Shown here: one piece after another, positions 17,457 to 39,486 of the stretch
Layout of the letters: each line of letters starts with the position of its first letter
Numbering within the stretch: position 1 is the stretch's first letter
Source of the DNA: Bdellovibrio sp. 22V
GTDB taxonomy: Bacteria > Bdellovibrionota > Bdellovibrionia > Bdellovibrionales > Bdellovibrionaceae
Direction of reading: 5' to 3'
NCBI RefSeq assembly: GCF_030169785.1
Contig: NZ_CP125854.1
Span: 3,410,001-3,474,000 of the forward strand
DNA length: 64,000 bases
The notes under the pieces: model-generated
The model's input: only the letters and a program-made list of their open reading frames with translations
Told to the model about the DNA's origin: nothing
The model's database searches: none
Program-made: the position numbers and the translations under genes

Positions 17457-17580
17457 GGAGATTTTGTAACAGAATGTCCAGTTCGCGTCACTGCAATAGT
17501 GTCACTGTACAATATGAGTAATACTTGCGCGCCATCAGAGCATAATAAATGTGAAAGCGATTTCAGGAAGGAGGTATCCC

Positions 17581-17754: not shown

Positions 17755-17770
17755 CGACGCTCGCATAAAC

Positions 17771-17799: not shown

Positions 17800-17801
17800 G
17801 C

Positions 17802-18206: not shown

Positions 18207-18238
18207 CTGTATATTCCTAGTTGATGCCGGAGGCAGTT

Positions 18239-19654
18239 TTAACAATCGTAATATAAATGGAACTCATATGGAACAGGTCTTTGTTGTACAGGTCGAACTT
18301 CTTTGTCGATTTTGTACTGGACCCAAGTCTCAATGAGGTCTTCAGTAAATACGTCGCCTTTTTTCAGGAATCCGCAGTTCTCTTTCAAGTGATTCAAGCT
18401 TTCTTCCAAAGTGCCTGGAACAGAAGGAATCGCGGCTGCCTCTTGCGGAGGTAGACCGTAGATGTCTTTATCCAATGGATCGCCCGGGTGAATTTTATTG
18501 ATGATTCCATCAAGTCCCGCCATCAAGATCGCTGCTTCCGCCAAGTAAATGTTCGCTCCAGGATCTGGCGTGCGGAATTCAATACGTTTTGCTTTTGGAT
18601 TGGGCCCGGAGTTTGGAATTCTCATCGCTGCTGAACGGTTCTTAAAGCTGTAAGCCAATTTTGTCGGAGCTTCGAAACCAGGAACCAAACGTTTATAAGA
18701 ATTTGTCGTCGGATTGATGATACCACAAAGCGCCGGTGCATGTTTCAAAACGCCACCGATATAGTAAAGGGCCATTTCAGAAAGACCCGCATACTTGTTG
18801 CCGGCGAAAAGATTTTTTCCGTCTTTCCACAATGACATATGGATGTGCATTCCGGAACCGTTGTCGCCAAAAAGAGGCTTCGGCATAAACGTCGCTGTTT
18901 TGCCATAACGTTTCGCCACGTTCTTTACGATGTATTTGAACCACATCATTTTATCGCCCATGTTCAAAGCTGTATCGAAGCGGAAGTTGATCTCGCCTTG
19001 ACCTGCAGTTGCAACTTCATGGTGATGACGTTCTACTTGCATGCCGCATCTTTCAAGCTCAAGACAAATTTCAGAGCGAAGATCTTGTTGGGAATCCGTC
19101 GGAAGCGCCGGGAAATATCCTTCTTTGCCACGGATTTTATAGCCTAAATTTTTTCCGCCTTCATCGCGACCTGTATTCCAAACTGCTTCATCGCTGTCTA
19201 CCATGTAGAAAGCCGAATTGCTTGTTTGTTCGTAGCGAACATCATCAAAGATAAAGAACTCCGCTTCGGGTCCGAAGTAAGCTGTGTCGGCAATCCCTGT
19301 TGACTGCATGTAAGCAATCGCCTTTTTCACCACTTGGCGTGGATCGCGATTGTAAGGTTGTAGCGTTTCTGGCAGGCAGACATCACAGATGATAGACAAA
19401 GTTGGAACCTGCATGAAAGGATCCATCATTGCTGACGCAGGATCCGGCATGATCACCATGTCAGACTCTTCGATCCCTCTCCATCCGCGAATGGAGCTTC
19501 CGTCGAAACCGAATCCATTCTCAAATGCATCTTCAGTTAGTTGATGCAAGGGAACTGTTAAGTGTTGCCAAGTTCCGATCATGTCACAGAACTTGAGGTC
19601 TACCATCTTCGCGCCTTTTTCATTGGCGAACTTAAGAACGTCTTTTCCTGTCAT
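18239..19654 (-). CDS. glnA: glutamine synthetase, type I
   Basis: GlnA makes glutamine from glutamate, ammonia and ATP in the cytosol. The 471-residue length is that of the bacterial GSI dodecamer. Visible landmarks: [20 protein letters not shown] (the family N-terminal signature), the [13 protein letters not shown] metal-binding Glu, [18 protein letters not shown] (ATP-binding region), and [10 protein letters not shown] with the [20 protein letters not shown] stretch. The Tyr of [10 protein letters not shown] (Y399) is the equivalent of the adenylylation site, so control by GlnE-type modification is plausible (GSI-beta type). The ATG has a CGGAGG ribosome site. It lies 24 bases after glnB in the same direction, the classic PII-GS pairing. 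Confidence 0.97.
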
Positions 19655-24638: not shown

Positions 24639-25460
24639 TTGATCCCTTGTCCGAGTTGCCAACAGCCGGTAGAGATTCTTGATAAACACATGGGGACGCT
24701 GTTCACGTGTCCCCATTGCAATGCGGTTTATTTTATCGACTGGAATGGGCAACCGGAGCTCGCTCAACATGAAGTTGAAGAAGAGCAACCGATTGAAAAT
24801 CCCCAAGACATTCAAGCTGGAACTGATTTCGAAGGTGGTGCCTCTTTTGAGGGAGGAGTTGCTTTCGAACCACCTCAACAAGACTTCAACACTTTCGGCG
24901 GGGCTCCTGATTATTCCGCACCTGTTGAACAGGAAGGATATGTCGGAGATATTCCGCAGCAAGTTCCTGAAGAGATGGCACCGCAAGAAGATCCTTATTT
25001 AGCGCCAGCTGAAGAGATTCCACCTGGTTCTGTCATCGAAACTCCTGGTGAAATGAGTGCTGAAGCAGGTATGGAAGCTTATTCAACAGAAGAAGCTCCT
25101 TACGATTTCAGTCAGACTTTGGATCGCGTGCAAGAGCCGACTCCCGCACCGGCAAGCACTCCGGATACTCCTGATTTTTCTGACGTCACTGATTTTGCGA
25201 ATGCCAATACATCGGCAGGGCCTCTGACATATTCCGTGATCATTGATGGCATCGAATCAAGTCATCTTTTATTGCAGTTGCGTGAAGCTATGACAGACTC
25301 ACGTTTTGGCTGGGATGTCGCTGAATTGCTTTCTCACGTCGGCGGAGGACGACTCGTATTAAAGGGTCTGACTCCGGCTAAAGCCTCAGTCCTAATCAAC
25401 CGAATTAAGTATCTGCCTTTTAAAATTTCTTGGAGGCAAGATGTGCTCTCAAGTTCTTAA
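24639..25460 (+). CDS. zinc-ribbon protein coupled to secA
   Basis: The TTG start follows directly on the secA stop. The 273-residue product has an N-terminal zinc ribbon with C4-P-S-C7 and C24-P-H-C27, similar to MJ0042-type ribbons. A long Glu/Pro/Ala-rich, probably disordered linker follows (about 40-195). The C-terminal 75 residues form a compact domain: VIIDGIESSHLLLQLREAMT, LLSHVGGGRLVLKGLTPAKA and INRIKYLPFKISW. I do not recognise the C-terminal domain. The coupling with secA suggests a role in export or envelope assembly, but that is only context. The 3' end overlaps the next gene by 20 bases. Confidence 0.78.
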   Translation: MIPCPSCQQPVEILDKHMGTLFTCPHCNAVYFIDWNGQPELAQHEVEEEQPIENPQDIQAGTDFEGGASFEGGVAFEPPQQDFNTFGGAPDYSAPVEQEGYVGDIPQQVPEEMAPQEDPYLAPAEEIPPGSVIETPGEMSAEAGMEAYSTEEAPYDFSQTLDRVQEPTPAPASTPDTPDFSDVTDFANANTSAGPLTYSVIIDGIESSHLLLQLREAMTDSRFGWDVAELLSHVGGGRLVLKGLTPAKASVLINRIKYLPFKISWRQDVLSSS

Positions 25461-26016
25461 GTTATCGTTAATCTTTTTGACATACGGCTCAGTGGCTTTT
25501 GCCAGTGGTGGGGAAAGTGCTCCGGCCAAAGAAGAGCCCAAAGAAATCAAGACGAGTGAAGAATCTTACGCCGTCGTGCAAGCTCGCGTCGCCGCCTTGG
25601 AGGCGAAAATTCGTTCTGGTGAAACCGAAATCGCCAAACTGATCACCGCAAAACAAAGTGCCAAAGATGCGGCCCAAGTGAATGAAGTCATCAGGCAGAT
25701 GATCACGATTCACAAAGATCTTGAGCACAACATCAAAGAATACGACCAACAAAGAGCTCTTTTGAAATATCGTTATCCAGAAAAGGGCCTTGCAGAAAAG
25801 CGCGAGTACGAAAGAATTGAACTGAAATCCATCGAAGAAATGGAAAGCCAGGTAAGTCTTAGCGCCTCTTTAAATAAAACCCTGCGCAAGGTGCGAACTC
25901 AATACGAAGCGCCTGAAGTGTCTGCAGAAGCCGCGAAAGACGCGCAAACAGAGCTGAAAAAGAAGCAGGATAAAAAGCAGCCGTCTCTGATTGATCCTGT
26001 CATTTTGCAAAAATAG
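25441..26016 (+). CDS. exported coiled-coil protein
   Basis: ATG 25441 follows TTGGAGGCAAG, inside the end of the preceding gene. The 191-residue protein has a signal peptide (MCSQVLKLSLIFLTYGSVAF, cleavage near FAS). It is then predicted as one continuous alpha-helix rich in Glu, Lys, Ala and Gln (VVQARVAALEAKIRSGETEI and so on), ending in a Lys/Gln-rich tail (KKKQDKKQPSLIDP). No family is recognised. As third gene of the secA unit and exported, it probably acts in the periplasm as a scaffold or adaptor; this is inference only. Confidence 0.8.
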   Translation: MCSQVLKLSLIFLTYGSVAFASGGESAPAKEEPKEIKTSEESYAVVQARVAALEAKIRSGETEIAKLITAKQSAKDAAQVNEVIRQMITIHKDLEHNIKEYDQQRALLKYRYPEKGLAEKREYERIELKSIEEMESQVSLSASLNKTLRKVRTQYEAPEVSAEAAKDAQTELKKKQDKKQPSLIDPVILQK

Positions 26017-26133
26017 TCTTTAAAAGTAACTGTTATTGAATAACCAATTTTTGATAAACAGTTTGTTGTTAATGCCGCGTATCAATAAAAACTTGTTAAA
26101 GTTTACAATTTTTCCAGTAAAAACATACGCTTT

Positions 26134-26152
26134 CCCTTTTTAAACAAAAGGG
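26134..26152 (+). terminator. weak hairpin in the intergenic region before the surface-protein cluster
   Basis: CCCTTTT (26134-26140) pairs with AAAAGGG (26146-26152) across TAAAC, followed by TCCCTTTT and a run of A. It may end the secA unit. The surrounding 26017-26243 is A+T-rich and should hold the promoter of the downstream cluster; I could not assign clear -35/-10 boxes. Confidence 0.4.
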
Positions 26153-26243
26153 TCCCTTTTAAAAAAATATTCGGCGCTTGCGTTTTGGTAGGTTCGGAAA
26201 TTACCGTCTTGTAAACAAGAAAAATTTAGTTTGCGAGGTCCTA

Positions 26244-28682
26244 ATGGTTCGATTTTTTGCAACGCTGATTATTCTCATAGTCGCAAGTCTTACAACGCAT
26301 GCGGAAGATTTAATAACGTTAAGCTCTGATAAAGCTGGCTATGTTCTTGGAGAAAGAGCATTTTTAAAAGTGAAAATTAACTCTCAGCCGCTCAATCCAG
26401 ACAACGAATATTACTTTCAGTCGACTTTTCAGGATGAAGGGCAAAAAATAGTTATGCTATCTGATACTGAAGCATTCGCAGTATCAAATCCTCTTGATGA
26501 TTTCTCTTCGAAGATTTGGGAAGTCAGTCTTTATATTCAGAATAAAAAGAGGGCTGAGGAGTATAACGCAACTATCGCGTTCTTCAGACAAAAGAATCTC
26601 GAAATCGATGAAAAATTAAATAAGGAAACGTCGCAATCCAATCGAGACATTCTCACACAGCAAAAAATTCGAAACGAACAGATTATTGTTAATAGCCAAG
26701 CTAAGCTGCAAGCAGGGAGAACATTTCTTCAGACAAAAACTTTGATTCTTACTCTAGATACGCTGTCGCCAATTTTAAAAAAATCATTTGTGGATCCAAC
26801 AATCGAAATTACTCCTGATGATCCTTCAAAGGTTTATGATTTAGGTGAAGTTGCTAAGTTCAATGTCGCTATTTCCAATGCCACAACTGACACGGAACTA
26901 ATTGTTAAAGGAGAAGTTCCAACTCATCAGGGAAGAATTCCAATTATACTTACTAAATCGACAGCAGCAAACGGAAGTATTGACTTTACGACTGCAACTT
27001 TGAATACAGGCGATGAAGGACGACGAAAGTTTATCGCGAATGTTAGCTATAGATCTCGTAGTGAGGCCGCATACTATCGCAATATTGTTATTCAATCTGA
27101 AACAAGAAAAGGCGAATACATTATACTTAAAAGTAAAACTCAAGACGAAAGAAAAAAGGCGTACTATGATATGTTAATTGCCGAGCTGGATAGGGCGATC
27201 GTATATAATAACGAAAAGTTACATGCGCTTTTGGTGAAAATTAACGACAACTCAGAGTTGGCATTTCGTGTCCGCGATCCAAATTTGATTATAGGCTTTG
27301 TTCTTGATGTTCCGACTGCGGATTTACAAGAGGGTAGCTCTACTGCGAAATTGAAAATTAAGCTCAATTACGAACCTGACGGGAATATCTTCGTAGATAT
27401 TACTCCAAATCAAACACCTCGTATAGATATAGCGTGGCCTTCCTCATTAATGTTTACTCCAGAGAATTGGAACGAGTATCAGGAGGTCCCTATTGAGGCA
27501 ATTGCTGATGATTATTTTGAGGGAACTCATTCCGGTGAAGTCACTATTTCATCAAGTGGGCCGGACTATGATGGACTCACCGCTGGTCCGTTCTCCTTCA
27601 ATATTCTAGATAAACAATATTCTTATGTGGGCTTGTCGCTGAATTCGACGTCTGCCTGTGCAATTAAAGGCAAAAGACTGGTTTGTTGGGGCGATGGTTT
27701 TGACTACGTCTTAGGAAATGGCTCTCAAAATACATTGTCAGTGCCCACAGTCGTGACGAACTATAATGAAATAACAAAAATCGGAAGCGGTTATCATCAC
27801 CGGTGTTTTATTAATGATGGGGCTGCTTATTGTTGGGGACAAAACGGTAAAGGGCAAATTGGTGTTGGAGGATATGCTTCGCATGTGACAACGCCGACTC
27901 TTGTTCCTGGTTTGGACTCTGGTGTGACTGATATTGCCGGAGGTTCATATCATACGTGCGCGATTAAGTGGGGCACAGTTTACTGTTGGGGTGATAATTC
28001 CACTTATCAAATGGGAAAAGGTGGCTCGGCGACCTACGATACGCCTCAGAGCGTCTCTTTGCCTATTACTCCAGTTATGTTGTCGATCGGTGCTAATAAT
28101 ACCTGCGCAGTCTCGGCCGCGGGGACAGCCTATTGCTGGGGAGAGGGCGTGAGTGGAAGTATGGGAATGGGCAACACGGCCACGTGGATAAATCCAACCC
28201 TATCAACTCATATCACAGGCGTGATTTCGATTACATCAAGTCCTTTAATGAATGTTCGGTGTTTTAATAACGGAACTAGAATGAAGTGTGTTGGTAGTAA
28301 TGGATGGCGACAGATTGGTAATTCAGCCGCCACTGCAAATATTTACACTGTACCCCAAGAAGTTGAAATACCTAGCGCTCCTTCGAGCATGGCATCTTCA
28401 GGATTTGCTCATGTCTGTGGGGTCTTCAACGGATCTGCCTACTGTTGGGGGAGCGTCGGTTTGAATATGGGTCTGCTAGGAAATGGTACTGCCGGTGGAA
28501 GTGCTACTCCGCAACTTGTCTCTAACGTTGTTCCTCCTGTTAGTGAAATCTCTGCCAGCACTTATCAGACCTGTTTGACCGATCAAGTTGGTACCAAATG
28601 TTGGGGAAGCTCGACTGTGCTCGGTGACGGCTCCGGTCAATCTTCAAATATCCCAGTCCAAATATTAGAACCGACACTTTAA
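26244..28682 (+). CDS. exported protein: two beta/coiled-coil modules, Calx-beta-like, RCC1-like propeller
   Basis: From ATG 26244 the product has 812 residues with a signal peptide (MVRFFATLIILIVASLTTHA). Residues about 22-180 and 188-350 are two copies of a beta-sandwich module with an inserted helical hairpin (FFRQKNLEIDEKLNKETSQS and similar). A Calx-beta-like domain follows (about 370-460: NWNEYQEVPIEAIADDYFEG, then HSGEVTISSSGPDYDG). Residues from about 465 to the end are seven RCC1-like repeats, each with CxxxxxxxxCWG (for example C472...CWG) and a GxGG/LGNG turn, the number needed for a closed seven-bladed propeller. The Cys pairs may be disulfides. It is the first of five consecutive exported proteins of the same type; function unknown. 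Confidence 0.85.
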   Translation: MVRFFATLIILIVASLTTHAEDLITLSSDKAGYVLGERAFLKVKINSQPLNPDNEYYFQSTFQDEGQKIVMLSDTEAFAVSNPLDDFSSKIWEVSLYIQNKKRAEEYNATIAFFRQKNLEIDEKLNKETSQSNRDILTQQKIRNEQIIVNSQAKLQAGRTFLQTKTLILTLDTLSPILKKSFVDPTIEITPDDPSKVYDLGEVAKFNVAISNATTDTELIVKGEVPTHQGRIPIILTKSTAANGSIDFTTATLNTGDEGRRKFIANVSYRSRSEAAYYRNIVIQSETRKGEYIILKSKTQDERKKAYYDMLIAELDRAIVYNNEKLHALLVKINDNSELAFRVRDPNLIIGFVLDVPTADLQEGSSTAKLKIKLNYEPDGNIFVDITPNQTPRIDIAWPSSLMFTPENWNEYQEVPIEAIADDYFEGTHSGEVTISSSGPDYDGLTAGPFSFNILDKQYSYVGLSLNSTSACAIKGKRLVCWGDGFDYVLGNGSQNTLSVPTVVTNYNEITKIGSGYHHRCFINDGAAYCWGQNGKGQIGVGGYASHVTTPTLVPGLDSGVTDIAGGSYHTCAIKWGTVYCWGDNSTYQMGKGGSATYDTPQSVSLPITPVMLSIGANNTCAVSAAGTAYCWGEGVSGSMGMGNTATWINPTLSTHITGVISITSSPLMNVRCFNNGTRMKCVGSNGWRQIGNSAATANIYTVPQEVEIPSAPSSMASSGFAHVCGVFNGSAYCWGSVGLNMGLLGNGTAGGSATPQLVSNVVPPVSEISASTYQTCLTDQVGTKCWGSSTVLGDGSGQSSNIPVQILEPTL

Positions 28683-28709
28683 TTATTTAGAAAAACGGAG
28701 TTTTTTACC

Positions 28710-29270
28710 ATGAAAAATTTTTTTAGCCTTCTGTTTATATCTCTAATGGTTTTTGGATTACAAGTGCGTGCTGATGGAACTCATTCTTTTGAAAAGATAA
28801 TGAGCACGCTTATAGATTTTGAATTAATGCCCACACAGCCCGGGCCATCTGATCATGTCACTATATATATTAGACCGAATACTACGTTTCAAACTCCGGG
28901 TATGACCGATATTATACTACAGGCAAAACTTGACGGTAATGATTTCTCATTGGTACGCCCTTTGAACGACGTTTGGATTTTTGCTTCGTTGCCATTTGAG
29001 GTGGCTGGGAATCATATTCTCGAAGTGAGTTATTACTTGGAAGATAAGCCTCAAGCAGATGCTCTAAGAGCGGCCATAGGGGTTTTAGATACGGAAATTA
29101 GTAAACTTCAGACTGATCTTCTTCTGGAAGAAGATGATGACATGAAAGTTGTTATACAGACGGCAATTGACGACAAAACTGCAGAGAGAATCGCTGCAGT
29201 CACAACTCTAGAAAATCTTAAAACTTTTGTCGGATCGGAAACTTTCACCTTTTCCGTGGCATCGAATTAA
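28710..29270 (+). CDS. exported protein: single beta/helical-hairpin module
   Basis: The 186-residue protein begins MKNFFSLLFISLMVFGLQVR, a signal peptide, at ATG 28710, 27 bases after the previous stop. It consists of one module of the cluster type: LIDFELMPTQPGPSDHVTIY strand region, ILEVSYYLEDKPQADALRAA leading into a charged helical hairpin (IGVLDTEISKLQTDLLLEED), and a closing strand FVGSETFTFSVA. The same ending TKTLILTL / GQETLSFVV appears in the neighbouring paralogues. It matches no family I know. The 3' end is ten bases before the GTG of the next gene. Confidence 0.8.
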   Translation: MKNFFSLLFISLMVFGLQVRADGTHSFEKIMSTLIDFELMPTQPGPSDHVTIYIRPNTTFQTPGMTDIILQAKLDGNDFSLVRPLNDVWIFASLPFEVAGNHILEVSYYLEDKPQADALRAAIGVLDTEISKLQTDLLLEEDDDMKVVIQTAIDDKTAERIAAVTTLENLKTFVGSETFTFSVASN

Positions 29271-29280
29271 TGGAGGAATA

Positions 29281-30330
29281 GTGAAAAAAATTAGCATTAT
29301 TCTGGTATCCTATTTGTTGGTCTTCTTTAATCATGCAGCGTTCGGAGCGCCTCAGATTCTGACTTTAGAATCTGATAACAGTTCTTATGGAATAGGACAA
29401 AGGGCGCTCTTAAGAGCTAAAATTAATGTAAAACCCAATAAGCCAAATCAAGAGGTCATATTAGTATCAACTTTGGATGGAAATCCCTTGGAGGTGTTAA
29501 GTTTTTCATCTCGATATGGATACAGCCTTACCGCGCAATTATCGACGGTGGGTATGTCTAACTGGACAGTTCGGGCATATGTGCAAGATAAAAACAAAGC
29601 TTTAGAATATGAAAAAATCATTCTTTATTATCAAAAAGAGAATATCGATATCGAAGACGCTCTCGCTAAAGAAACAGATCATGAAATCAGGAATTATCTC
29701 ACAACGACAAAAATAAGAAATCTTGCAATTATCAACAACACTAAAGCGAGAATTTCAGAAAATAGAATCTTTCTGGGACAAGAGACTCTATCTTTTGTAG
29801 TAAGTTTTGTTGTTGGCCAAGCATTAGGGTTAAACCCATATGCACGAATTGAATCTGACCGCGAATCGCAAATCTATAATGTGGGTGAACGAGCAAACTT
29901 CTTTGCAGAACTGCTCACAGATATTACAAGTGCAGAGGGCTATCACGAAATTTATATGGATGGGAAGATCGAAAGCAGCGGAAGCATGCCTGAGCTTGTA
30001 GTTAAAATGAAGCGTATATCCGAAAAGACATTTTCATTTCAGAGTCCTATCTTTACCAGTGCTGACTTGGGAACCAGAAGATTTGTGGTCACGGTGAAAA
30101 CGCGACCTAAAAAACAAGCGGACTCAATCCGTGAAGCAATTCGATCTGTAAGAGATTTGAAATTACAGTATCAGAGTGCTCAAAATCAATCGTTTGATCC
30201 AATGGATAAAATCTACTACCAAAATAGAATCAATATGCTTCAAGTATATGAAACGAACTTGCCTAGTCATCTCAATGAAATTTTGACTACATTTATTTCA
30301 AATTTGGGCCTCCGTTTTGATGTTCAATAA
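29281..30330 (+). CDS. exported protein: two beta/helical-hairpin modules
   Basis: I chose GTG 29281, behind a TGGAGGAATA site; the longer frame to 29227 would overlap the previous gene. The 349-residue product has a signal peptide (MKKISIILVSYLLVFFNHAA). Its first module begins PQILTLESDNSSYGIGQRAL and closes GQETLSFVVSFVV. The second begins RIESDRESQIYNVGERANFF and includes ADSIREAIRSVRDLKLQYQS. Both are close in plan to the two modules of the 26244 protein ('ITLSSDKAGYVLGERAFLKV'), with the same Y-x-x-G-E/Q-R-A signature. It lacks a propeller or enzymatic domain. Probably a structural partner of its neighbours. Confidence 0.82.
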   Translation: MKKISIILVSYLLVFFNHAAFGAPQILTLESDNSSYGIGQRALLRAKINVKPNKPNQEVILVSTLDGNPLEVLSFSSRYGYSLTAQLSTVGMSNWTVRAYVQDKNKALEYEKIILYYQKENIDIEDALAKETDHEIRNYLTTTKIRNLAIINNTKARISENRIFLGQETLSFVVSFVVGQALGLNPYARIESDRESQIYNVGERANFFAELLTDITSAEGYHEIYMDGKIESSGSMPELVVKMKRISEKTFSFQSPIFTSADLGTRRFVVTVKTRPKKQADSIREAIRSVRDLKLQYQSAQNQSFDPMDKIYYQNRINMLQVYETNLPSHLNEILTTFISNLGLRFDVQ

Positions 30331-30344
30331 GAACGGGAGAAACA

Positions 30345-33300
30345 ATGTTACTGAAAAATAAGTTTTCAATTGGCACACGCTCCATGATCCTTTTCGCTGC
30401 TATAATTGCATTGTCTGGTGGATTTGCTTTTGCCAAGAAGGGGTTTTTTTCTTTTCTAGATAAATATGTTGCTATTTCCCTCGATCGTTCCGACGGCGCA
30501 TATTTAGTTGATGAAAATGCAATTATTAAAGTGGAAGCAAAAAAGAAACCAGTTAATTCTAATCTTAAACTTGTTGTTGAAGCTTATAAAATTATCGGTT
30601 CGGATAAAGTAAGTCTTAAGCCAAGTGTAGATCAAGGTATTTATCTTGCTCAGTTTTCCTCTAAGGTAGATGGTGCTGAAGCTATAACGGTGGAAGTTTT
30701 CATTGAGAATGAAAAGTTGCGAAATGACCTCTCTAAAAGAATTGCGGAGACAGAAAAATTAATTGCTGATTTGAATGGAGCTATCGCAGTAAATCCTACG
30801 CCTGACAAAATTAAGAGGCGCGATGATTTAGAAGCTATTCTTCCCTTACTGCGTGATCAGTATAATGATACTAGAAAACTAGTACAAACTGAAGTTGTAA
30901 ACTACGTAACGATTCCTAATGATACTGAGCTCTCAATTTTTACTCCTATTGCCGATGCAAAAATTGTGAGTGGATCCATTGAAGTAAAGGGCATATTTAC
31001 CACGACGGTGCCTGGAGTAAAGTTATATGTCGATTCCCAGGAAGTTCTCGGTGCAAAGTCCGGTCAGGAATTCTTACATACGTTCAACGAAGAGGGTATA
31101 GGAAAATTGCAGACGCGTATCGAGGTAAAAAGGGGAAATTTTCTATTAAAACGGGTCGCAGTTCCGTATTTAGTTATTCCTGACGGAGGAAAAAATTTAG
31201 ATGTTGGTTCTTCTGGTGGAACTGTTGAGATGACTGATCCGTCAAGTCCAATTGTTGGAGCAAAGGTTGTATTGCCACCAAATGCAATGCCCGAAAATAA
31301 CGAGATCATTATTGCTGAGTCTCCTCATGGGATGATGGTACCCGCCGGCAATGTTGTTATCAGCAAGGATTATATTTTTTATCCTTATTTTATGCACTTT
31401 AATGAAGATGTGACGGTGACCATTCCAATTGATGCTTCAAAAATTCCAGCAGGAAGATCTTACGCTGAAGCTAAGGTGCTGGCCCGAATTAACGGTGCAT
31501 GGGTGGAGCTACCTGTAGACAGTTCTACTTCGGGATTTGTAACGTTTAAAACGAGAGATTTCGAATACGACTCTCTTCAAATAGTTATCCCGATGCCTTT
31601 GAAGTCAGGGGAATTGCGTATCATTAGTAATGTCGCAGGCGCGACGATTTATGTGGACGGGCTGAGTGAAGGATTTCAAACCCCTTGGACTCTATCTGGA
31701 ATGACAAACGAACAGCATGATATTAAAATATATGCTCCCGGTTATAATGAGTTTTTTCAAAAAATTGATTATAACGGTCCATCGACCTTAAATGTCCAAT
31801 TGACGCCGTTAAGAAAAGTCGGAATTCCAAAAATCGAAACCGCAACAGTGTCTGACGGTATGACCGTTTCCAATTCCTTAATACAGATTCCAGGTAATAT
31901 TAGTTTAAATGGAGTACCTTCAAATGATGGATTTTTAGTTGTTTCAATGAATGGAAGTGATTCGCTTCAGACAGTTTTGCCAAATGGAGCATTTGCGGCT
32001 GTAGTTCCACTATTTGAAGGAGAAAACATTGTAGAACTAAGGTATACCGTCAATGGAATAACTTCTATTAAAGGTCCTTTTCGTATTATTCGTAACGCTC
32101 AAAGTACCTTCGATCACTTGGCTCAGTATCCGTTTGCATATGAAGTAGATTTAAAAAGCAAAGAGACTAGAATAGCAAAACTTGGTCTGTTAGAAAGTTT
32201 TAAAGTTCCTAAATCGGATATATTATTCTCCGAGAATACGAGAAATCAAGAAATTCGCGTCGTAATGTCATGGACTAAATCAGACACTGATGTTGACATG
32301 CATATTTATGATCCTTTTGGGGGCCATGCTTGGTATGGAGATTTGGGAGGAGTAGCTGGAGGTGTTCTTGACCATGATGATACTGACGGCTTTGGACCAG
32401 AGACTTTTGTTTTACCCAAACCTCGCCCCGGAGTTTATCGAGTGCGAGCACAGTACTACTCGGATCATGGGAATGGTTCCACGACCGTTCAGTTCAGAAT
32501 CTATTTAGGTGGGAAACTACTTGCAACTTTATCAAGAGGAATGTCATCCGGTGGATCTTGGGATGCTTATGAAATCGAAATCACAGATGAAATTGCAATT
32601 AAGGACGTAATTTCTATATCTGGTAGATCGACAGAAGCGAGGAGGGTTGAATGTAACAATCGGACGGATGGTATCTGTATTAATGGCAAATTTACTACTC
32701 ACGCTGGCGAAAATATTCTTTTACCCAAAGTAGAAGTTGATGATTCTGTTCCCGATGCCGATATTTCGTTTGTAGTTTCTGAATTGAGTTACGGCACCTC
32801 AATTCCTGTCTCTTCGAGAGGGAGAAATGCGAGAGTTAGTCTTCCTATGAGACAGGAGGCTGGATTCGCTAGTATTGGTAAGCCTCTTCTATATAAGATT
32901 GTAGCTAAGACTTCATCGTCAGAGTCTCCGCCCTTCTACGTAGTCCAAGACACTAGATCTCAGATTCGACAGGAGTATATTGATTTGAGAGAAAAAACAA
33001 AAGGTGCCCCGGAAGATGAGCGTTTTGAGGTTGCAGTGCCAACGTACAGTGAAATTAACGATGGAACAAATTTCCCGGGTCCAAACTTTTATACATATTC
33101 TGATTTTTTAAAAAATACTATATTTGGGAATTATGGATTAGTTTTAAATTCACGACAGTATGCTAATGAAGTAAACCTTGCTTTTAGAAATAAGTATAAC
33201 CCAGCTGGCCGGATTATACTGACATCTGGCTGGAGAAATCCTAGGAAAAACTATTCGACTCCAAGACGAGCATTAAACAGTGGGCATCAAACCGGAAACT

Positions 33301-33506
33301 CTATCGATCTCGTTCCTCCAAAGTCAGATTTGCCGAAGGTTTACGGGCGACATCTGGGAGTAATAAATCTTATGAAAGATTTATGTGATGTCTCATTTGC
33401 TGGAATTCGCGATAATGTACTAGTAATGGTGCATGGTGGAGATCATGTGCATATTCAGAGAAACTCCGGAAAGAAGGTTTCTTTATGCTATAGGCACAAG
33501 ATATAA
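30345..33506 (+). CDS. large exported multidomain protein with C-terminal LAS-type peptidase
   Basis: The 1053-residue protein starts at ATG 30345 after GGGAGAAACA. After the signal peptide (to about 34) comes a cluster-type module with helical insert (about 40-195), an Ig-like domain, a ZU5-like domain (about 283-425: GGTVEM, KVVLPPNAMPENNEIIIAES), a PEGA domain (about 421-490: GATIYVDGLSEGFQTPWTLS), another Ig-like domain, a DUF2135/YfaP-like domain (about 635-745: VVMSWTKSDTDVDMHIYDPF) and a peptidase domain (about 915-1045). The last has SGWRNPRKN, SGHQTGNSIDL and GDHVHIQ, giving H981, D988 and H1036 as zinc ligands, as in M15/MepA (LAS) enzymes that cut peptide bonds next to D-amino acids in peptidoglycan. 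Likely substrate: cell wall peptide. Confidence 0.85.
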   Translation: MLLKNKFSIGTRSMILFAAIIALSGGFAFAKKGFFSFLDKYVAISLDRSDGAYLVDENAIIKVEAKKKPVNSNLKLVVEAYKIIGSDKVSLKPSVDQGIYLAQFSSKVDGAEAITVEVFIENEKLRNDLSKRIAETEKLIADLNGAIAVNPTPDKIKRRDDLEAILPLLRDQYNDTRKLVQTEVVNYVTIPNDTELSIFTPIADAKIVSGSIEVKGIFTTTVPGVKLYVDSQEVLGAKSGQEFLHTFNEEGIGKLQTRIEVKRGNFLLKRVAVPYLVIPDGGKNLDVGSSGGTVEMTDPSSPIVGAKVVLPPNAMPENNEIIIAESPHGMMVPAGNVVISKDYIFYPYFMHFNEDVTVTIPIDASKIPAGRSYAEAKVLARINGAWVELPVDSSTSGFVTFKTRDFEYDSLQIVIPMPLKSGELRIISNVAGATIYVDGLSEGFQTPWTLSGMTNEQHDIKIYAPGYNEFFQKIDYNGPSTLNVQLTPLRKVGIPKIETATVSDGMTVSNSLIQIPGNISLNGVPSNDGFLVVSMNGSDSLQTVLPNGAFAAVVPLFEGENIVELRYTVNGITSIKGPFRIIRNAQSTFDHLAQYPFAYEVDLKSKETRIAKLGLLESFKVPKSDILFSENTRNQEIRVVMSWTKSDTDVDMHIYDPFGGHAWYGDLGGVAGGVLDHDDTDGFGPETFVLPKPRPGVYRVRAQYYSDHGNGSTTVQFRIYLGGKLLATLSRGMSSGGSWDAYEIEITDEIAIKDVISISGRSTEARRVECNNRTDGICINGKFTTHAGENILLPKVEVDDSVPDADISFVVSELSYGTSIPVSSRGRNARVSLPMRQEAGFASIGKPLLYKIVAKTSSSESPPFYVVQDTRSQIRQEYIDLREKTKGAPEDERFEVAVPTYSEINDGTNFPGPNFYTYSDFLKNTIFGNYGLVLNSRQYANEVNLAFRNKYNPAGRIILTSGWRNPRKNYSTPRRALNSGHQTGNSIDLVPPKSDLPKVYGRHLGVINLMKDLCDVSFAGIRDNVLVMVHGGDHVHIQRNSGKKVSLCYRHKI

Positions 33507-33520
33507 AATTGGAGCTTTTG

Positions 33521-34009
33521 ATGACGAAAGTACTTATTTGTTTATTTTGTCTATGTTTATCGATGCCTTCTGCTGCAAAAAATAACGAAGTCCGCAAAGA
33601 GAACGTGAAAGATGATTTTGATGTTCAGTATGTTTCAAGGGCTAAGGCTGCTACTCCGTCTGATGAATACGAAGAGATGGGGTGTTCATGTGCGGTAAAA
33701 AAAGAAGGAAAGAGAATTATTACGACAAATCTCACGCTTGAACATGGCGATGCGTATGTACAGATCAATAATAAAAGATATCGTCTCAAGTTTATAAGTA
33801 GTAAGGAAGCCGGAAAGAACAGATTCATTTCCAAATATTCAAACGGAAAGTACGATTTAAATCTGACTTGTAACACTAAAAAAGTAACGTATCCCCCGCC
33901 GTGCGAAGAAAGTGGCTGCACCGGAATTGACTACTTTTGTGATGCAGAATTTTCAAATGGAAAACAGAAAAGCACTTTTTCAGGTTTAAAGGGAGAGTGT
34001 GGTTGCTAA
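33521..34009 (+). CDS. small exported cysteine-rich protein
   Basis: From ATG 33521, 12 bases after a GGAG site, the product has 162 residues with a signal peptide (MTKVLICLFCLCLSMPSAAK). The body has about eight cysteines, several as pairs: MGCSCAVKK, LTCNTKK, PPPCEESGCTGIDYFC, and a final GECGC. These look like an extracellular, disulfide-stabilised domain. No family is recognised. It is the last gene of the unusual cluster, 14 bases after the peptidase gene, and shares its A+T-rich composition. It could be an inhibitor, chaperone or binding partner of the peptidase; there is no evidence for any of these. Confidence 0.78.
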   Translation: MTKVLICLFCLCLSMPSAAKNNEVRKENVKDDFDVQYVSRAKAATPSDEYEEMGCSCAVKKEGKRIITTNLTLEHGDAYVQINNKRYRLKFISSKEAGKNRFISKYSNGKYDLNLTCNTKKVTYPPPCEESGCTGIDYFCDAEFSNGKQKSTFSGLKGECGC

Positions 34010-34095
34010 TATGTTTACAACCAGGGTATCAACTAGTTGACCCCGCAGTCATAAGAAAGTAATATATTCGTATTACCCAAGAAATAGGAGGGCTG

Positions 34096-34146
34096 ATGAT
34101 TGTAAAATTCTTTAATCCAAACCATGGCTCTCTTGGTCGTTCTTAA
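34096..34146 (+). CDS. possible 16-residue peptide with strong ribosome site
   Basis: ATAGGAGGGCTG precedes ATG 34096, and the frame encodes MIVKFFNPNHGSLGRS before TAA at 34144-34146. The ribosome site is as good as any in the window, yet the frame is only 17 codons. It could be a leader peptide for rsgA, the remains of a lost gene, or chance. It lies 81 bases before rsgA. Confidence 0.3.
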   Translation: MIVKFFNPNHGSLGRS

Positions 34147-34193
34147 TTTCTATTTTTGAATTAATAATTTAAATCCACGAGAGCTCCGCTTTT

Positions 34194-34213
34194 ATTTTTT
34201 AAATTTAAAAAAT
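34194..34213 (+). repeat. 20-bp A/T palindrome before rsgA
   Basis: ATTTTTTAAATTTAAAAAAT is a perfect palindrome ending three bases before the GGAG of rsgA. An all-A/T palindrome can form by chance in A+T-rich DNA, but its position between promoter and start makes a regulatory or melting role possible. Confidence 0.4.
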
Positions 34214-34226
34214 TTGGAGTTATTGC

Positions 34227-35315
34227 GTGAATTTATATTCAAAGCTCATCCCTTTGGGGTGGGACGCATTTTTTGAACAACAATTAGAATCATCCACTGA
34301 GCATTGGCAACTGGGCCGAGTTATCGGGCAAGAGCGAGATTTGTACCGCGTGGCTTTCGCGGAAGATGACGTCGTGTGGGCGCAGCTTTCGGGTCGCTTT
34401 CGTCACGACAATGAGCTTTCGGCCGGAGCATTTCCGGCCGTGGGTGATTGGGTGGCGTGTAAGAACGAAGAAAATCAAGACAGAGCCTTGATTCAAAAAG
34501 TTCTTGAACGTCGTTCGTGCTTTTATCGGAAAGACCCTCAAGAAGGTGTGCAAGTCGTTGCCGCGAACATGGATGTTGTATTTATCGTGACCTCCATGAA
34601 TCGCGATATGAACTTGAAACGCTTGGATCGCTATTTGAGCATGGCCTGGGACAGCGGCGCTTCACCGGTTTTGGTTCTAAGCAAAATGGATCTTGCTGAA
34701 GATCCTGCCGCTTTTATTCAAGAGCTGGAAGAAACTTATATCGGCGTCCCGATTCATGGAGTGAGCGTTCTTGAGCCCGACACTTGTGAAGTGCTTAAGA
34801 ACTATTTGCGTCCAGGAAAAACGGTCGTGCTTATGGGATCCTCCGGAGTCGGGAAATCCACTTTGACGAATTTCTTTTTAGGAGAAAATACGATCAAAAC
34901 ACAAAACGCGCGAGAAGACGACGATCGCGGGCGGCACACAACGACCTCTCGATTCTTATATCAGTTGCGTGAAGGTGCTTTGCTTATGGATACGCCGGGA
35001 ATGAGGCAGCTTGCTCTCGTCGACCAAGAAGAGGGTTTGCACGATCTCTTTGAAGACATCATTGCGATCGGTTCGACTTGCCGGTTCCGCGATTGCGCTC
35101 ATCAGGGTGAACCTGGATGTTCTATTCGGGCCGCCCTGGAAGATGGTTCCTTGCCGGAAGACAGATGGGAAAGTTATCTGAAACTTCAAAAGGAAGTCGC
35201 CTACCAGGAAGCTCGAGGAGATCGCCAAAAGCAGGCGGAGGATCGAAAAAAATGGAAAAAGATTTCTAAGGATCTTCGTGTGCGAATCAAACAGAAAGGC
35301 CGGGGGGAGATTTAA
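34227..35315 (+). CDS. rsgA: ribosome small-subunit GTPase RsgA
   Basis: RsgA helps late maturation of the 30S subunit by GTP-dependent release of RbfA. The 362-residue protein shows the circular permutation of the family: OB-fold first, then G4 as LSKMDL (152-155, with Ser in place of the usual Asn), G1 as GSSGVGKST (204-212), G3 as DTPG (255-258), and the C-terminal zinc knuckle with C285, C290, H292 and C298. The G2-like region REDDDRGRHTTTSR is normal. The start is GTG 34227 behind TTTGGAGT. It follows the unusual cluster but is a core housekeeping gene with normal composition. The stop lies inside a small GC hairpin. Confidence 0.96.
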   Translation: MNLYSKLIPLGWDAFFEQQLESSTEHWQLGRVIGQERDLYRVAFAEDDVVWAQLSGRFRHDNELSAGAFPAVGDWVACKNEENQDRALIQKVLERRSCFYRKDPQEGVQVVAANMDVVFIVTSMNRDMNLKRLDRYLSMAWDSGASPVLVLSKMDLAEDPAAFIQELEETYIGVPIHGVSVLEPDTCEVLKNYLRPGKTVVLMGSSGVGKSTLTNFFLGENTIKTQNAREDDDRGRHTTTSRFLYQLREGALLMDTPGMRQLALVDQEEGLHDLFEDIIAIGSTCRFRDCAHQGEPGCSIRAALEDGSLPEDRWESYLKLQKEVAYQEARGDRQKQAEDRKKWKKISKDLRVRIKQKGRGEI

Positions 35316-35321
35316 CCCCGG
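35300..35321 (+). terminator. possible terminator overlapping the rsgA stop
   Basis: CCGGGG (35300-35305) pairs with CCCCGG (35316-35321), spanning the TAA stop, then CTCCTTTG. The stem is short and the T tract poor, so I give it low weight. Confidence 0.35.
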
Positions 35322-35435
35322 CTCCTTTGAGTAAGGCCAACGATCATTACTTTTATTGTGCCAAAATGAGACAAAAGAAAGTGGCAGCCTTTAACGGATC
35401 CGAGTAAACTGGTACCTTAGAAGAATGGGGGAACT

Positions 35436-35879
35436 ATGCTCCGATATTTGGCTATTCCTGTCGTTATAATCAGTCTTTTGACGACAGCATGTCAGACATC
35501 CATGTTGAAGCAGTTTTCTAAGATCGAACCAGGAATGGAAAAGGACGACGTTCTACGATTGATGGGTTCTCCCAAGCAAACGCAACGCTTTCACGGTAAA
35601 GATCGTTGGTCTTACGTTTTCTACGACAATCGCATAAAATTCGAAAAAGAAGTGCAATTCTTTGAGGGCAACGCGATCTACGTGGGTGATAAGTGGCAGC
35701 CGGAAAAAGATAAGACCGCAGCCGCTATCGACGGCATCAACGATCAAAAGAACCAACAGATCGACGAGCAAATTGCCAAGGACGTTGAGGCACATCGCCG
35801 TTCTTATGAGGCTTATGAAAAAGAAGCCAAGGGCGAAGACAAAGTTCGTTATGTTCCCGATTTCGAAGCTATTCGCTAG
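35436..35879 (+). CDS. BamE/SmpA-OmlA-like lipoprotein
   Basis: The 147-residue protein starts at ATG 35436 after GGGGGAACT. It has a lipoprotein signal with LTTAC and then the SmpA/OmlA core: FSKIEPGMEKDDVLRLMGSP, WSYVFYDNRIKFEKEVQFFE. This is the BamE fold (helix-helix-beta sheet, 'GMTKxxVxxxLGxP' motif). BamE stabilises the Bam complex that inserts outer-membrane barrels. The C-terminal 55 residues are an added helical, charged tail (DGINDQKNQQIDEQIAKDVE) not found in E. coli BamE. It could therefore be true BamE or a related lipoprotein. The 3' end overlaps the convergent 35869 gene by 11 bases. Confidence 0.85.
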   Translation: MLRYLAIPVVIISLLTTACQTSMLKQFSKIEPGMEKDDVLRLMGSPKQTQRFHGKDRWSYVFYDNRIKFEKEVQFFEGNAIYVGDKWQPEKDKTAAAIDGINDQKNQQIDEQIAKDVEAHRRSYEAYEKEAKGEDKVRYVPDFEAIR

Positions 35880-36555
35880 CTTTTAGAATGAGGGGCTGTC
35901 CTAGAACGGAAATCACTTCATAGCCGTTGATGGATAAAGTGTTCTCGGGATTTTTTCCGTAGAATTTAACTCCGATCCAAGTCCACTCTGTAGGCCAAAA
36001 TTCCACGACATTTCTAAAAAAAACTTTGCCTTGTTCGCGGCTTCCGGGAACGGAAGCGGTGAATTCAAATTGCTGCAAAGGACTTTTTAGAATCGTTGCA
36101 AATGGAATGGCAGCGGCTTCCAGGTGGTGTTGGTCTTCACTGATAAGGCATGGCGTACGGACGACCATTTGCGGAATCTCTCCCGAAAAAGCGACACCTT
36201 CTGCCGCGAAGATCAAGTCGACTGTCGGATATTCTTCGCAAACAAAAACTTTCGCACCGTCGGCGTTTTTTAAAAGAAATGAACCTAAGACAACGCCGGG
36301 TCCTTCAGAGGTCTCTATCGGATGGGCGTCTTTGAGCACCTGATATTTAAAGGCCTTTTTAAATTCTTCCGGAGAGGCTTCAGAAAGATCGTGTTCCACT
36401 GTCATTTCGGATGAATTCGAGGAACCGTCGGAGGCGACCTTCCGTAATGGAGACAGTTTTTTCTCCAAAGTCATCAATGCAAACGGCAAAGCCGCGAGCA
36501 GAAGAATCAGACTCATCATGCGCGAAGTTTTTTGAAGCGGAGTTTTCTTTTTCAT
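35869..36555 (-). CDS. membrane-anchored protein coupled to a protease gene
   Basis: The 228-residue protein has one N-terminal membrane helix (about 14-30: MSLILLLAALPFALMTL) and then a predicted periplasmic domain with mixed strands: GVVLGSFLLKNADGAKVFVC, VDLIFAAEGVAFSGEIPQMV, FEFTASVPGS and WIGVKFYGKN. There are two Cys residues. No family is recognised. Its ATG lies one base after the stop of the metalloprotease gene in the same direction, so translation is probably coupled and the two proteins likely act together, for example as protease and inhibitor or anchor. That pairing is inference. Confidence 0.75.
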   Translation of the reverse strand: MKKKTPLQKTSRMMSLILLLAALPFALMTLEKKLSPLRKVASDGSSNSSEMTVEHDLSEASPEEFKKAFKYQVLKDAHPIETSEGPGVVLGSFLLKNADGAKVFVCEEYPTVDLIFAAEGVAFSGEIPQMVVRTPCLISEDQHHLEAAAIPFATILKSPLQQFEFTASVPGSREQGKVFFRNVVEFWPTEWTWIGVKFYGKNPENTLSINGYEVISVLGQPLILKASE

Positions 36556-36556
36556 C

Positions 36557-37195
36557 TTAGTACTCGCATTTAATTGTTTCGCGGTCGGCAGCCGTTAATA
36601 CGTCTCGTTTCAAAGCCCCATTGAGAACAGCCCACATCACGCTGGGAACGGTACTTCGGTGTTTTAATCCTAAAACGTGTCCCAACTCGTGAATCAGCAG
36701 ACTTTCAAGGTGGACGTCTTTATAGGATTGATATTCGTCGATAAAAAAATTGAAGTATTTATTGTCGATGGCAACGTCAGCTTCATAAAGCTCGTTCGCG
36801 CGCCAATAAAGATTCGTGAGCCCTTGCATGTTCTTCTGCGCTTCAGGCCATTCCTGTAACCAGTGAACTGTGTTCACAGAGTCTCGCTTTGTTTCGTCCG
36901 TCAAAGTCTTTTCAGAGCGTACGAAGTTAAAGAGCGTCATGCCAGCAGCATCATTCCAGTGCGAGGCCGCTTTGCGAAGAACCTCTTCGTATTCAGTAGG
37001 AAAGCTTTTGTGGAGTTCGAGAGTCACAGGAATATTCTTTTTCCATGACACTCTTTGCCCGTAGGCGTTTTGCACAAATCCACAATCTGTTTCAGCGGCA
37101 CTTGCGAGATTGTCGGCGTCACCGGGCCCCAATGTAATGCCGTTTTGGCATGCGCATAAAGCCAACAATGTAATGAACAGAAAGCATTTGTACAT
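36557..37195 (-). CDS. matrixin-like metalloprotease lipoprotein
   Basis: The 212-residue protein has a lipoprotein signal (MYKCFLFITLLALCAC, Cys16). The zinc site is complete: HELGHVLGLKH with H169, E170, H173 and H179, and the Met-turn VPSVMWAV with M187, as in M10A (matrixin) and related metzincins. The catalytic domain is compact (about 50-205), with no visible prodomain cysteine switch and no hemopexin repeats. It would cut proteins at the cell envelope or outside. The start has a GAGAGAC ribosome site. The next gene begins one base after its stop. Matrixin-like lipoproteins of this kind are known from several predatory and gliding bacteria. Confidence 0.88.
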   Translation of the reverse strand: MYKCFLFITLLALCACQNGITLGPGDADNLASAAETDCGFVQNAYGQRVSWKKNIPVTLELHKSFPTEYEEVLRKAASHWNDAAGMTLFNFVRSEKTLTDETKRDSVNTVHWLQEWPEAQKNMQGLTNLYWRANELYEADVAIDNKYFNFFIDEYQSYKDVHLESLLIHELGHVLGLKHRSTVPSVMWAVLNGALKRDVLTAADRETIKCEY

Positions 37196-37269
37196 GTCTC
37201 TCAGTTTACACGAGATTTTTTAGCATATCTTTGGGAACTTTTCGGACCTCGACAAAGGTAAAGGTCCTT

Positions 37270-39486
37270 TTAGAAGTAAGAATCCGCCCAATCAATCAAA
37301 GTACTATTGATCCAGGAAATTTTTTCTTGGGCCGTGATCCTGCGTCCCTGTTTTAGGAAGTTTAAAACCTCACTGCGCAATTCGTTGGCGGTCGCCTCGT
37401 GTAAAATCAGCACGCCGCTTTCAGTGTCATGAATGAAACTGCGGCGATTTAAATTGACGCTGCTTACGAAACTAAGTTTGCGATCAATCACCAAGAGTTT
37501 TGCATGCAGGATCGACTTTTCGTCGGACCATTCGTAGATTTCGACGTTGGCAAGGTGGCGATTCACCCCTTGCTTATTCACGTCCTCCGCGATTTGCGGA
37601 GTACCGTCACCAGCCAGACGTATTCTTGTCATCACTTTCACCTTCACGCCTCTTTGCACGGCGCGATCCAAAGCCGCACTAATAGCGACAGAGGGACGGA
37701 AGTAAGGAGTCGTGATAAGAAGCTCTGACTGAGCGGAGTCGATCATCTCGATATAAAATTTTTCAAGTTGATAACCGTCAAAATAGGGCAAGGACATGAT
37801 ATGCCGAACCAACGGATAAAGCTTGGGCAGGTTCGATAAGCGAGAAACCTGATTACTTGAGGCCTGCTGCGGAATATTGATATTTGTTGAGCGGAAGCGT
37901 TGAGTTTCAGGATCTCTCATCCAGAACGATAACATTTGCGCTAAAACGGATTTTACAAAAGGAGCGCCGCGAATTTCGACTTCGAAATCGTTGTAATAGA
38001 TGTACGCTTCTTCGCCTTCACCGTAGTTCTTTAAATACTTGTAGGCTTTATAAAAAGGCGTGTCAGAGAAAATATAAGAGTCGCGGATGTTTCTGCCACC
38101 TGTAATTAGAAAGTTATCTGAAGGTTTTTTAGAAGAATGCCCAATGATAAGTTTGGTGTGATTCACGCGGTGAAATTTATCGAGCCAGCCGCCATCTTCT
38201 TTCTCAGAGAGACGGTATTTGTAGTATTGAACCTTCACGTTCGGCATACCAATTTGCAGCCACTCCAAAATACGTTTGTCTTTTTTTGTCATGGTGACTT
38301 CTGGGACAAGAATACGGATCTGCGTTCCACGAGAAGCGTGATAACGAAGAGCCCGAGCTAAGACCATTCCATGGAAGTCGGCGGAGAAATTTAAAGATGA
38401 GACCCAAATAATATCGAACTGCGGAGCTTTATCGAAACTCAGTTTCGCCATCGGGTTCTTATTGTCAAAGTCCTTACGAGCCAAAGGTGATCCCGTCAGC
38501 GACATGATCTTGCGATTCATCGACACATACGGGTCGCGCAGGTTCACCCATTTGTCGAACGTTTGTGTGCAGGTCACGAAATTATAATCTTGCTGCCAAA
38601 AGAAGCTGGTTGGGTTGTTGCCGAAATCACCGGAAGGTCTTGCGCAGACATCGATCTGGTTTGTCAGCTTCAACCACTCTGTTGAAAGATCGCTCAGCTC
38701 TTTCAAAGCAAAGCCATGTGTCCACGTTTTATCTTTTTCCGGATCAAAGAAGTAAAACTGGCAGTTGCGCACGAAAGGAGAAAAACGCACGCTCACTTTT
38801 TGTCCGTTCACTTGGTTGTAATACCAATTGAAGTCAAAAGAGCGTCCTTTCTTTTCATTTGAGAAAAAGAGAAATGGATCGTCATAAATAAACTCGGCAT
38901 CGCATGTAAGGCGAGCCTTCAAATACTCTTGTCCTTTGTTGCTGTCGTCGCGAAAATGCGGCGGATTTTTAGGTGGCAGCATATTTCGAAAGCGCAGGGA
39001 ATAGCTTTTATAAAAACGATGTTCCAGCGGAAAAGGATTTACTCCAACGCCAAGTCTAAAATCGTCCCAGTTATGCACTTCAATAATCTCTTCTTTTTCA
39101 AAGAGCACAGGACGAAATGTTGCTTCAAACCAGGGGCCTAAGCCGGACCACTCGCGCAGATGCAGCTTGTTGCTCATAGTTTCAATGTGTTGATTTCTCT
39201 CTTGGACCAACTGACTCAAAGCCGCGCGAGCTTGCGGATCGCGCAGAGCTTTTTCCCCGAAAGCTGGGATGTGACTTGCTCCCTGTGTCGTCGAGCTTTG
39301 AGTTTGGAATAATTCCTGACTTTTGCGCCAGTCGTTATTCCAAAACCGTGACAACTCTAGATCAATCTCCTGAATGCGGTTGATTCTTTGATCGTCATAC
39401 ATTTCGGAACTGGGACTGCGCTGTACGTTGGTACAAGAAATAAGAAGAGAGCATAGAATGAAGACACAGAAACCGAACACGTTCAT
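37270..39486 (-). CDS. phospholipase D-family lipoprotein
   Basis: I chose ATG 39486; TTG 39495 is an alternative. The 738-residue product has a lipoprotein signal (MNVFGFCVFILCSLLISC). The C-terminal half has two phospholipase D half-sites. The second is a complete HxKxxxxD: H661-A-K663-L-L-V-I-D668, followed by SSVNLNRRS. The first reads H443-T-K445-L-I-I-G-H450, so the acidic residue is His. The N-terminal 350 residues form an unknown domain. PLD enzymes cleave or exchange phosphodiester head groups (cardiolipin synthases, phospholipases, nucleases). As an outer-membrane or periplasmic lipoprotein it may act on phospholipid; the substrate is unknown. Confidence 0.88.
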   Translation of the reverse strand: MNVFGFCVFILCSLLISCTNVQRSPSSEMYDDQRINRIQEIDLELSRFWNNDWRKSQELFQTQSSTTQGASHIPAFGEKALRDPQARAALSQLVQERNQHIETMSNKLHLREWSGLGPWFEATFRPVLFEKEEIIEVHNWDDFRLGVGVNPFPLEHRFYKSYSLRFRNMLPPKNPPHFRDDSNKGQEYLKARLTCDAEFIYDDPFLFFSNEKKGRSFDFNWYYNQVNGQKVSVRFSPFVRNCQFYFFDPEKDKTWTHGFALKELSDLSTEWLKLTNQIDVCARPSGDFGNNPTSFFWQQDYNFVTCTQTFDKWVNLRDPYVSMNRKIMSLTGSPLARKDFDNKNPMAKLSFDKAPQFDIIWVSSLNFSADFHGMVLARALRYHASRGTQIRILVPEVTMTKKDKRILEWLQIGMPNVKVQYYKYRLSEKEDGGWLDKFHRVNHTKLIIGHSSKKPSDNFLITGGRNIRDSYIFSDTPFYKAYKYLKNYGEGEEAYIYYNDFEVEIRGAPFVKSVLAQMLSFWMRDPETQRFRSTNINIPQQASSNQVSRLSNLPKLYPLVRHIMSLPYFDGYQLEKFYIEMIDSAQSELLITTPYFRPSVAISAALDRAVQRGVKVKVMTRIRLAGDGTPQIAEDVNKQGVNRHLANVEIYEWSDEKSILHAKLLVIDRKLSFVSSVNLNRRSFIHDTESGVLILHEATANELRSEVLNFLKQGRRITAQEKISWINSTLIDWADSYF

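Follow-up and report, generated by a model that had tools for sequence, protein, structure and literature searches.

Gene E (positions 30345-33506, forward strand) of Bdellovibrio sp. 22V is read here as encoding a putative exported peptidase directed at the peptidoglycan of prey or rivals, and its surroundings as a variant polymorphic effector island without RHS, in which the next gene, F, encodes a candidate immunity protein. This reading, drawn from sequence, is held with about even confidence. The window, meaning the whole stretch of 64,000 nucleotides analysed, covers positions 3410001-3474000 of the complete 3.6 Mb genome (G000, contig C1), and coordinates below refer to it unless another locus is named. 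The genes upstream of E are called B, C and D, and A is the gene to the left of the inserted stretch in which these genes lie. As the preliminary description of this DNA had it, the open reading frame (ORF) of E is intact, opening with ATG and translating without internal stops into 1053 residues of a protein predicted to be exported.

The evidence for enzymatic function lies at the C-terminus, where residues ~891-1048 (33015-33488) likely form a LAS/M15_3-like domain with intact zinc and catalytic residues. The motif SGWRNPRKN (961-969), the pair H981-x6-D988, and HVH with H1036, on which the preliminary description rested its case, are found at exactly the positions it gave, a script confirming S961, G962, W963, R964, N965, P966, R967, N969, H981, D988, H1034 and H1036. 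By analogy with known LAS enzymes, H981, D988 and H1036 would presumably bind zinc, with H1034 acting as the base. The combination of H-x6-D and a downstream HxH is not very rare: shuffling the last 170 residues of E 100,000 times produced it 728 times; together with SG[YWF]RxPxxN, a pattern composed after the match was known, it arises in 0 of 100,000. A single full-length relative of E was found, an ortholog from Bdellovibrio sp. UBA4095 (G016) with 38% identity over residues 196-1048, and both proteins keep the zinc positions, the HxH and SG(W/Y)RxPxxN, with an identity of only 34% across the domain.

Comparison of alignment profiles points to the same family. Eleven Peptidase_M15_3 proteins of the same phylum, picked out of 34 listed places because their matches extend to the model's end, were aligned and compared by hhalign with E and its ortholog, giving 50.2 bits and a probability of 95.0 over 43 columns, whereas shuffling the columns 200 times gave no more than 22.5 bits and reversing the alignment gave 11.4. 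The same alignment scores 44.2 bits with E alone and 40.6 with the ortholog alone, and the aligned stretch includes SGWRNPRKN and H981-D988, the C-terminal HVH lying outside it. E shares with Peptidase_M15_3 (PF08291), a family of LAS-type zinc D-Ala-D-Ala peptidases, the elements SG(Y/W)RxPxxN, H-x6-D and HxH in identical order; in contrast to the family, it has HVHI(Q/E) where HIHCD is usual and a longer spacing between D988 and the HxH, and its domain stands at the end of a 1053-residue protein. The Pfam model PF08291 gives the isolated C-terminus 12.8 bits (E-value 0.13), below the cut-off of 23.2, and E is therefore described as a divergent relative and not as a member of PF08291. MepA is classified as MEROPS M74. 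Of the earlier assignment to an M15/MepA-type peptidase, the M15_3 relationship stands (50.2 bits against at most 22.5), whereas MepA as the nearest relative gives way to Peptidase_M15_3. A LAS-like lipoprotein of another genome (G011, L063) was considered as a further relative and rejected: it aligns at the motif with only 10.9 bits, which is not significant.

The score below the Pfam cut-off would also suit a domain that binds peptidoglycan without cutting it, E then being an adhesin, and so would the low confidence of the domain model, for which AlphaFold2, given just the two sequences of E and its ortholog, returns a mean predicted local distance difference test score (pLDDT) of 39.8. A relic used for binding would be expected to lose its zinc positions, HxH and SG(W/Y)RxPxxN, which both relatives retain at their low identity, and this explanation is considered very unlikely. 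A wall-cutting zinc peptidase placed behind adhesion-like domains, the core of the preliminary description, is well supported as a prediction at the sequence level, by motif, M15_3 profile and ortholog.

Ahead of this domain E has a signal-peptide-like N-terminus, a head module and a PEGA-containing stalk. A signal peptide is predicted at residues ~1-30 (30345-30434) by a hydropathy script. The preliminary description called the enzyme tethered, which its sequence does not bear out: E has the signal peptide only, with no lipobox cysteine, and its most hydrophobic later stretch of 19 residues averages just 1.21. By the same script the signal peptide is the sole pointer to a delivery route. A PEGA domain (PF08308) at residues 422-487 (31608-31805) is certain, scoring 46.2 bits in E (E-value 4.2e-12) and 39.5 in the ortholog against a cut-off of 20.8. 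The ZU5-like and DUF2135-like regions that had been named with it are borderline, and it is the ortholog, not E, in which they come up to the edge of the cut-off. ZU5 (PF00791) is not listed for E by the Pfam scan and, with 20.8 bits, falls just short of its cut-off of 21 in the ortholog, from which the region was mapped by pairwise alignment to residues ~288-362 of E (31206-31430); DUF2135 (PF09906) scores 22.1 bits against 22.0 in the ortholog and 14.2 bits (E-value 0.049) in the segment of E, whose core spans residues ~676-701 (32370-32447). Binding-type domains are present, as the preliminary description had it, and the particular surface at which E was said to be aimed is a putative one; the first 190 residues, counted there among binding or scaffold domains, are no generic scaffold and consist largely of a module common to the neighbouring genes. 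Other searches add little: a PDB sequence search gave nothing useful, PHROGs only weak matches of unknown function, PADLOC no anti-phage defence protein among the five proteins B, C, D, E and F, and Rfam no match across 24000-36000.

This head module, which combines an immunoglobulin (Ig)-like fold with a helical hairpin, occupies residues 44-187 of E (30474-30905). A profile of 22 rows from neighbouring and sister genes, with E left out, matches this segment by hhalign with 57.3 bits, the maximum in 60 shuffles with the halves kept apart being 15.6, and in a whole-genome search recovers E with an E-value of 1.4e-11. The coiled-coil neighbour A has no module match, scoring 11.9 bits, or 19.1 bits at a probability of 1.8 with a longer segment. 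AlphaFold2 applied to the six copies in the window models the first module of D confidently (mean pLDDT 89.1) as a beta-sandwich whose last strand is preceded by an inserted hairpin of two helices. The top PDB matches by Foldseek are structures of GlgE (4u2z, 5vt4, 5cgm; E-values 1.4e-6 to 1.1e-4). According to PMC4663749, domain N of GlgE (1-122, 205-220) has the helical domain S inserted at 123-204 and supplies most of the dimer contacts. The module shares with these domains the beta-sandwich and the helical insert before the final strand; GlgE, in contrast, is a cytosolic glucan enzyme with 8-13% identity and four helices in the insert instead of two. VIA alignments to GlgE covering 127-139 residues, the greater part of the module, have root-mean-square deviations of 7.9-9.6, and VIA-align gives Z ~10-12 to many Ig-like domains over ~80-90 residues. 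Since generic Ig-like folds crowd both the VIA and the Foldseek lists, only the general fold and topology of the module are secure. The module also heads a protein with a different body, P0003 (832 residues, L023:4422-6920, genome G005), which lies between a D-like gene and an RHS gene and has no Pfam match; it matches the module profile with 39.1 bits, and with an E-value of 4e-4 in the whole-genome search, and BLAST finds no significant match between it and E (E-value 0.17).

Genes B to F share a strand and are separated by 27, about 10, 14 and 14 base pairs (bp), a spacing that suggests one transcription unit. A promoter and terminator scan found sites no more numerous than in shuffles, so that no operon claim rests on that scan. 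B (26244-28682) carries two modules (E-value 6.2e-54) followed by an RCC1 beta-propeller region (Pfam, 3.5e-30, with match coordinates counted from a TTG at 26178), C (28710-29270) a single module (1.5e-51), and D (29281-30330), which starts with GTG, two modules (1.2e-54 and 2.0e-7); all three have signal-peptide-like N-termini. Across the genes that carry it the module is attached to RCC1 and, judged by eye, to IPT/PKD-like and Calx-beta-like regions.

The run appears to be a mobile addition to the chromosome. In genome G020, secA, a Zn-ribbon gene, A, rsgA and a bamE-like gene are collinear with the window, the RsgA-like protein is 82% identical to that of the window, and the distance from A to rsgA is only 407 bp. 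On the left, homology with G020 stops where A has its 3' end; on the right, it resumes near 34033. As A and rsgA are contiguous there and homology breaks off at both sides, the B-F run is an insertion or replacement, with approximate ends at 26017-34032. The guanine-cytosine (GC) content of B-F is 0.37-0.42, compared with 0.459 for secA and 0.492 for rsgA, and in G008 the same site holds a different gene of 321 residues. A itself (25441-26016), between the Zn-ribbon gene and the insertion, encodes an exported coiled-coil protein whose place is conserved in G020 and G008. On the other side of the run, 36557-37195 (reverse strand) encodes a small exported protein that is conserved near rsgA in G008 and shows, by eye, a metalloprotease motif of the HExxHxxGxxH type.

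F (33521-34009) encodes a small, Cys-rich protein of 162 residues and starts 14 bp after E, with GGAG preceding its ATG. The hydropathy script gives an N-terminal hydrophobic peak of 2.94, consistent with export, and 11 cysteines. Because a wall-directed toxin needs a guard in the periplasm, F suits an immunity role by compartment, as it does by place, and its position and predicted export make it the candidate immunity protein of E. Within 59 genomes F is present only in its own, with no homologue in the other 58. Bd3459 and Bd0816 are PBP4-type serine enzymes. A comparable arrangement is on record for Bdellovibrio in PMC4686830, where Bd3460 is a self-protection protein that inhibits these prey-directed endopeptidases, so that, as proposed for E and F, a wall peptidase of the predator is paired with a self-protection protein. 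The two systems differ in that Bd3460 has an ankyrin-based fold whereas F is small, Cys-rich and exported, and in that Bd3459 and Bd0816 are DD-endopeptidases whereas E is a zinc LAS-type protein.

The case for a weapon draws on the company that the module keeps elsewhere. Searches with the module profile find clusters in G000, G001, G002 (two), G005, G008, G015 and G020, a 64-residue match in G016 (E-value 7.9e-4) not being counted as a cluster. In all seven clusters outside the window, from six genomes, an RHS/YD-repeat gene lies next to the module genes or within a few kb of them. A Pfam scan of six of the seven, all but the first RHS gene of G002, recognises RHS or YD-shell families in each; the RHS pieces of G001 and G008, cut by contig starts, fall below the Pfam YD-shell cut-off and above the NCBIfam core cut-off. 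The C-terminal tips of these RHS proteins vary, and a small, immunity-like gene directly follows the tip in five of the seven clusters, its product judged by eye to be exported in G008, a membrane protein in G005 and the second G002 cluster, and soluble-looking in G020, with small membrane and exported candidates both present in G015. Since in the sister clusters the same modules have beside them an RHS cage protein whose tip varies, E resembles a warhead carrier without RHS in a like island, standing where the RHS gene would be; its position parallels G005, where a D-like gene, a gene for a large protein headed by the module and the RHS gene come one after another. The Pfam scan finds no RHS family in E, and no RHS gene lies near the window cluster, the three Rhs_assc_core matches of the genome being far from the window, at genome positions 503545-504784 and 2713603.

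Individual sister clusters deserve separate mention. The G008 tip (contig C19, L027:11-604) resembles a YkuD/Tlde1-like L,D-transpeptidase, with E-values of 0.0024 and 0.14 that do not reach the cut-offs, and is followed 2 bp on by an exported protein of 184 residues (607-1161); the two likely form an effector-immunity pair. In G001 (contig C17, L029:28-777) the RHS tip has an HExxH-type motif, seen by eye, and no small gene, the next gene encoding a 745-residue module protein. A single RHS protein of G015 (L026:697-4878) contains two stacked core/tip segments, which suggests displacement of tips by recombination. One RHS gene of G002 (L024:14538-15290, 15781-18999) stops abruptly past the core, beside an IS3-like transposase recognised by eye and near a module cluster. 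With the RHS class of polymorphic toxin systems (Zhang et al. 2012, PMC3482391) E shares an exported multidomain protein, a C-terminal enzyme, a small gene behind it and a mobile accessory cluster, and that paper describes tips, among them peptidases and L,D-peptidases, that act on peptidoglycan; the terms VanY, D-Ala-D-Ala and DD-peptidase are absent from the available part of its text. In contrast to those toxins, E lacks RHS repeats, having a ZU5-PEGA-DUF2135 stalk instead, and its trunk, found twice, has the LAS tip both times.

Wall hydrolases accompany many envelope assemblies. E could be a housekeeping or surface-remodelling hydrolase of the predator's own envelope, making way through the wall for a structure like a pilus or an adhesin built from B, C and D, with the RHS neighbours elsewhere being pilus-related. 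This is the chief rival, since the RHS protein Bd0109 works together with Bd0108 in pilus regulation and two RHS genes of strain HD100 adjoin pilus genes (PMC3818213, PMC4267844). It is nevertheless considered rather unlikely, as E is accessory, inserted and low in GC, with a relative over most of its length in 2 of the 24 genomes of the genus, its own included; no pilus gene is recognised among the ORFs of 26000-38000, which were partly scanned with Pfam; and the RHS tips beside module clusters differ and usually have small genes next to them.

The distribution of E bears on a second alternative, in which E is a large secreted adhesin-hydrolase that processes the prey wall and has no immunity partner, F and the module genes being mere neighbours. 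Any match to E is found in 5 of 59 relatives, 3 of these short, and partial matches in G030, G032 and G054 are left out of the ortholog count. A profile of E and its ortholog adds a third, partial match among 66 genomes of the family, in G032, which is likewise left out of that count; a search with just the LAS domain finds it in 2 of 143 genomes of the class, and a scan of a collection of species genomes confirms one locus, that of UBA4095, among 75 pattern matches. Nothing points to a phage origin: 50,697 phage records searched by tblastn held no match to E, and no viral contig was confirmed with E, the LAS alignment, the G011 lipoprotein or the M15_3 alignment as queries. As the ortholog lies outside a module cluster and is without F, the trunk and tip of E are not bound to the cluster, nor F to the trunk. 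This agrees with a solitary prey-wall enzyme, as does the secretion of prey-directed wall enzymes by Bdellovibrio (PMC4686830). The head module that E has in common with three adjacent genes, and the spacing of B-F with its suggestion of a single transcription unit, argue in the other direction, and the alternative is judged decidedly unlikely. The gene directly after the ortholog (L030:10768-11685, G016) looks by eye like a stand-alone Ig and ZU5-like protein resembling the stalk of E.

Several observations weigh against reading E as the effector of an island with its own immunity gene, in addition to the poor model of the LAS domain and the link of Bdellovibrio RHS proteins with pilus regulation. 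The N-terminus of the ortholog differs, with no match to the head module (score 10.9, probability 0.1); there is no RHS gene in the 19 kb around it and no F homologue in its genome. The variability of tips by which polymorphic toxins are known is not seen on the E trunk, which bears the LAS domain in two of two cases, and two of the seven RHS clusters are without a clear immunity gene, G001 having none and the first cluster of G002 being broken near the transposase.

If E is nonetheless a prey- or rival-directed peptidase, it would act as the effector of an accessory, horizontally moved Bdellovibrio gene cluster. B, C, D, E and F would all be exported by Sec; the shared modules would then associate, the helical hairpins being a possible contact, and B, C, D and E would make up, or become part of, a single extracellular or envelope complex. 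The ZU5-PEGA-DUF2135 stalk would contact a target, the zinc domain would cleave the peptide bonds in peptidoglycan, probably that of prey or a rival predator, and F, exported from the adjoining gene, would shield the producer's own wall. A broader and more tentative proposal, possible but doubtful, is that of a mobile Bdellovibrio delivery platform, in which exported proteins sharing the module co-assemble as a surface scaffold that presents exchangeable warheads or passes them on, each with an immunity gene. As a rule the warhead would be an RHS cage whose toxin tip varies, replaced in 22V by the cage-free ZU5-PEGA-DUF2135 stalk with its LAS peptidase, and the platform would move between chromosomal sites and be used against both predators and prey.

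No published account of the module, the cluster or a LAS tip on such a stalk was found in a search outside which most subscription papers lay, and the main text of PMC11656739 mentions no RHS, RCC1, PEGA or M15. E may be an unrecognised type of weapon in a predatory bacterium. Bdellovibrio RHS genes, which PMC3818213 and PMC4267844 discuss mainly for pilus control, would be marked as possible weapons. Its defined insertion site, its shared structural module, effectors that can be exchanged and a candidate immunity gene make the cluster a concrete and testable system for studying how predators deliver wall-cutting or toxic enzymes without harm to themselves or to one another.

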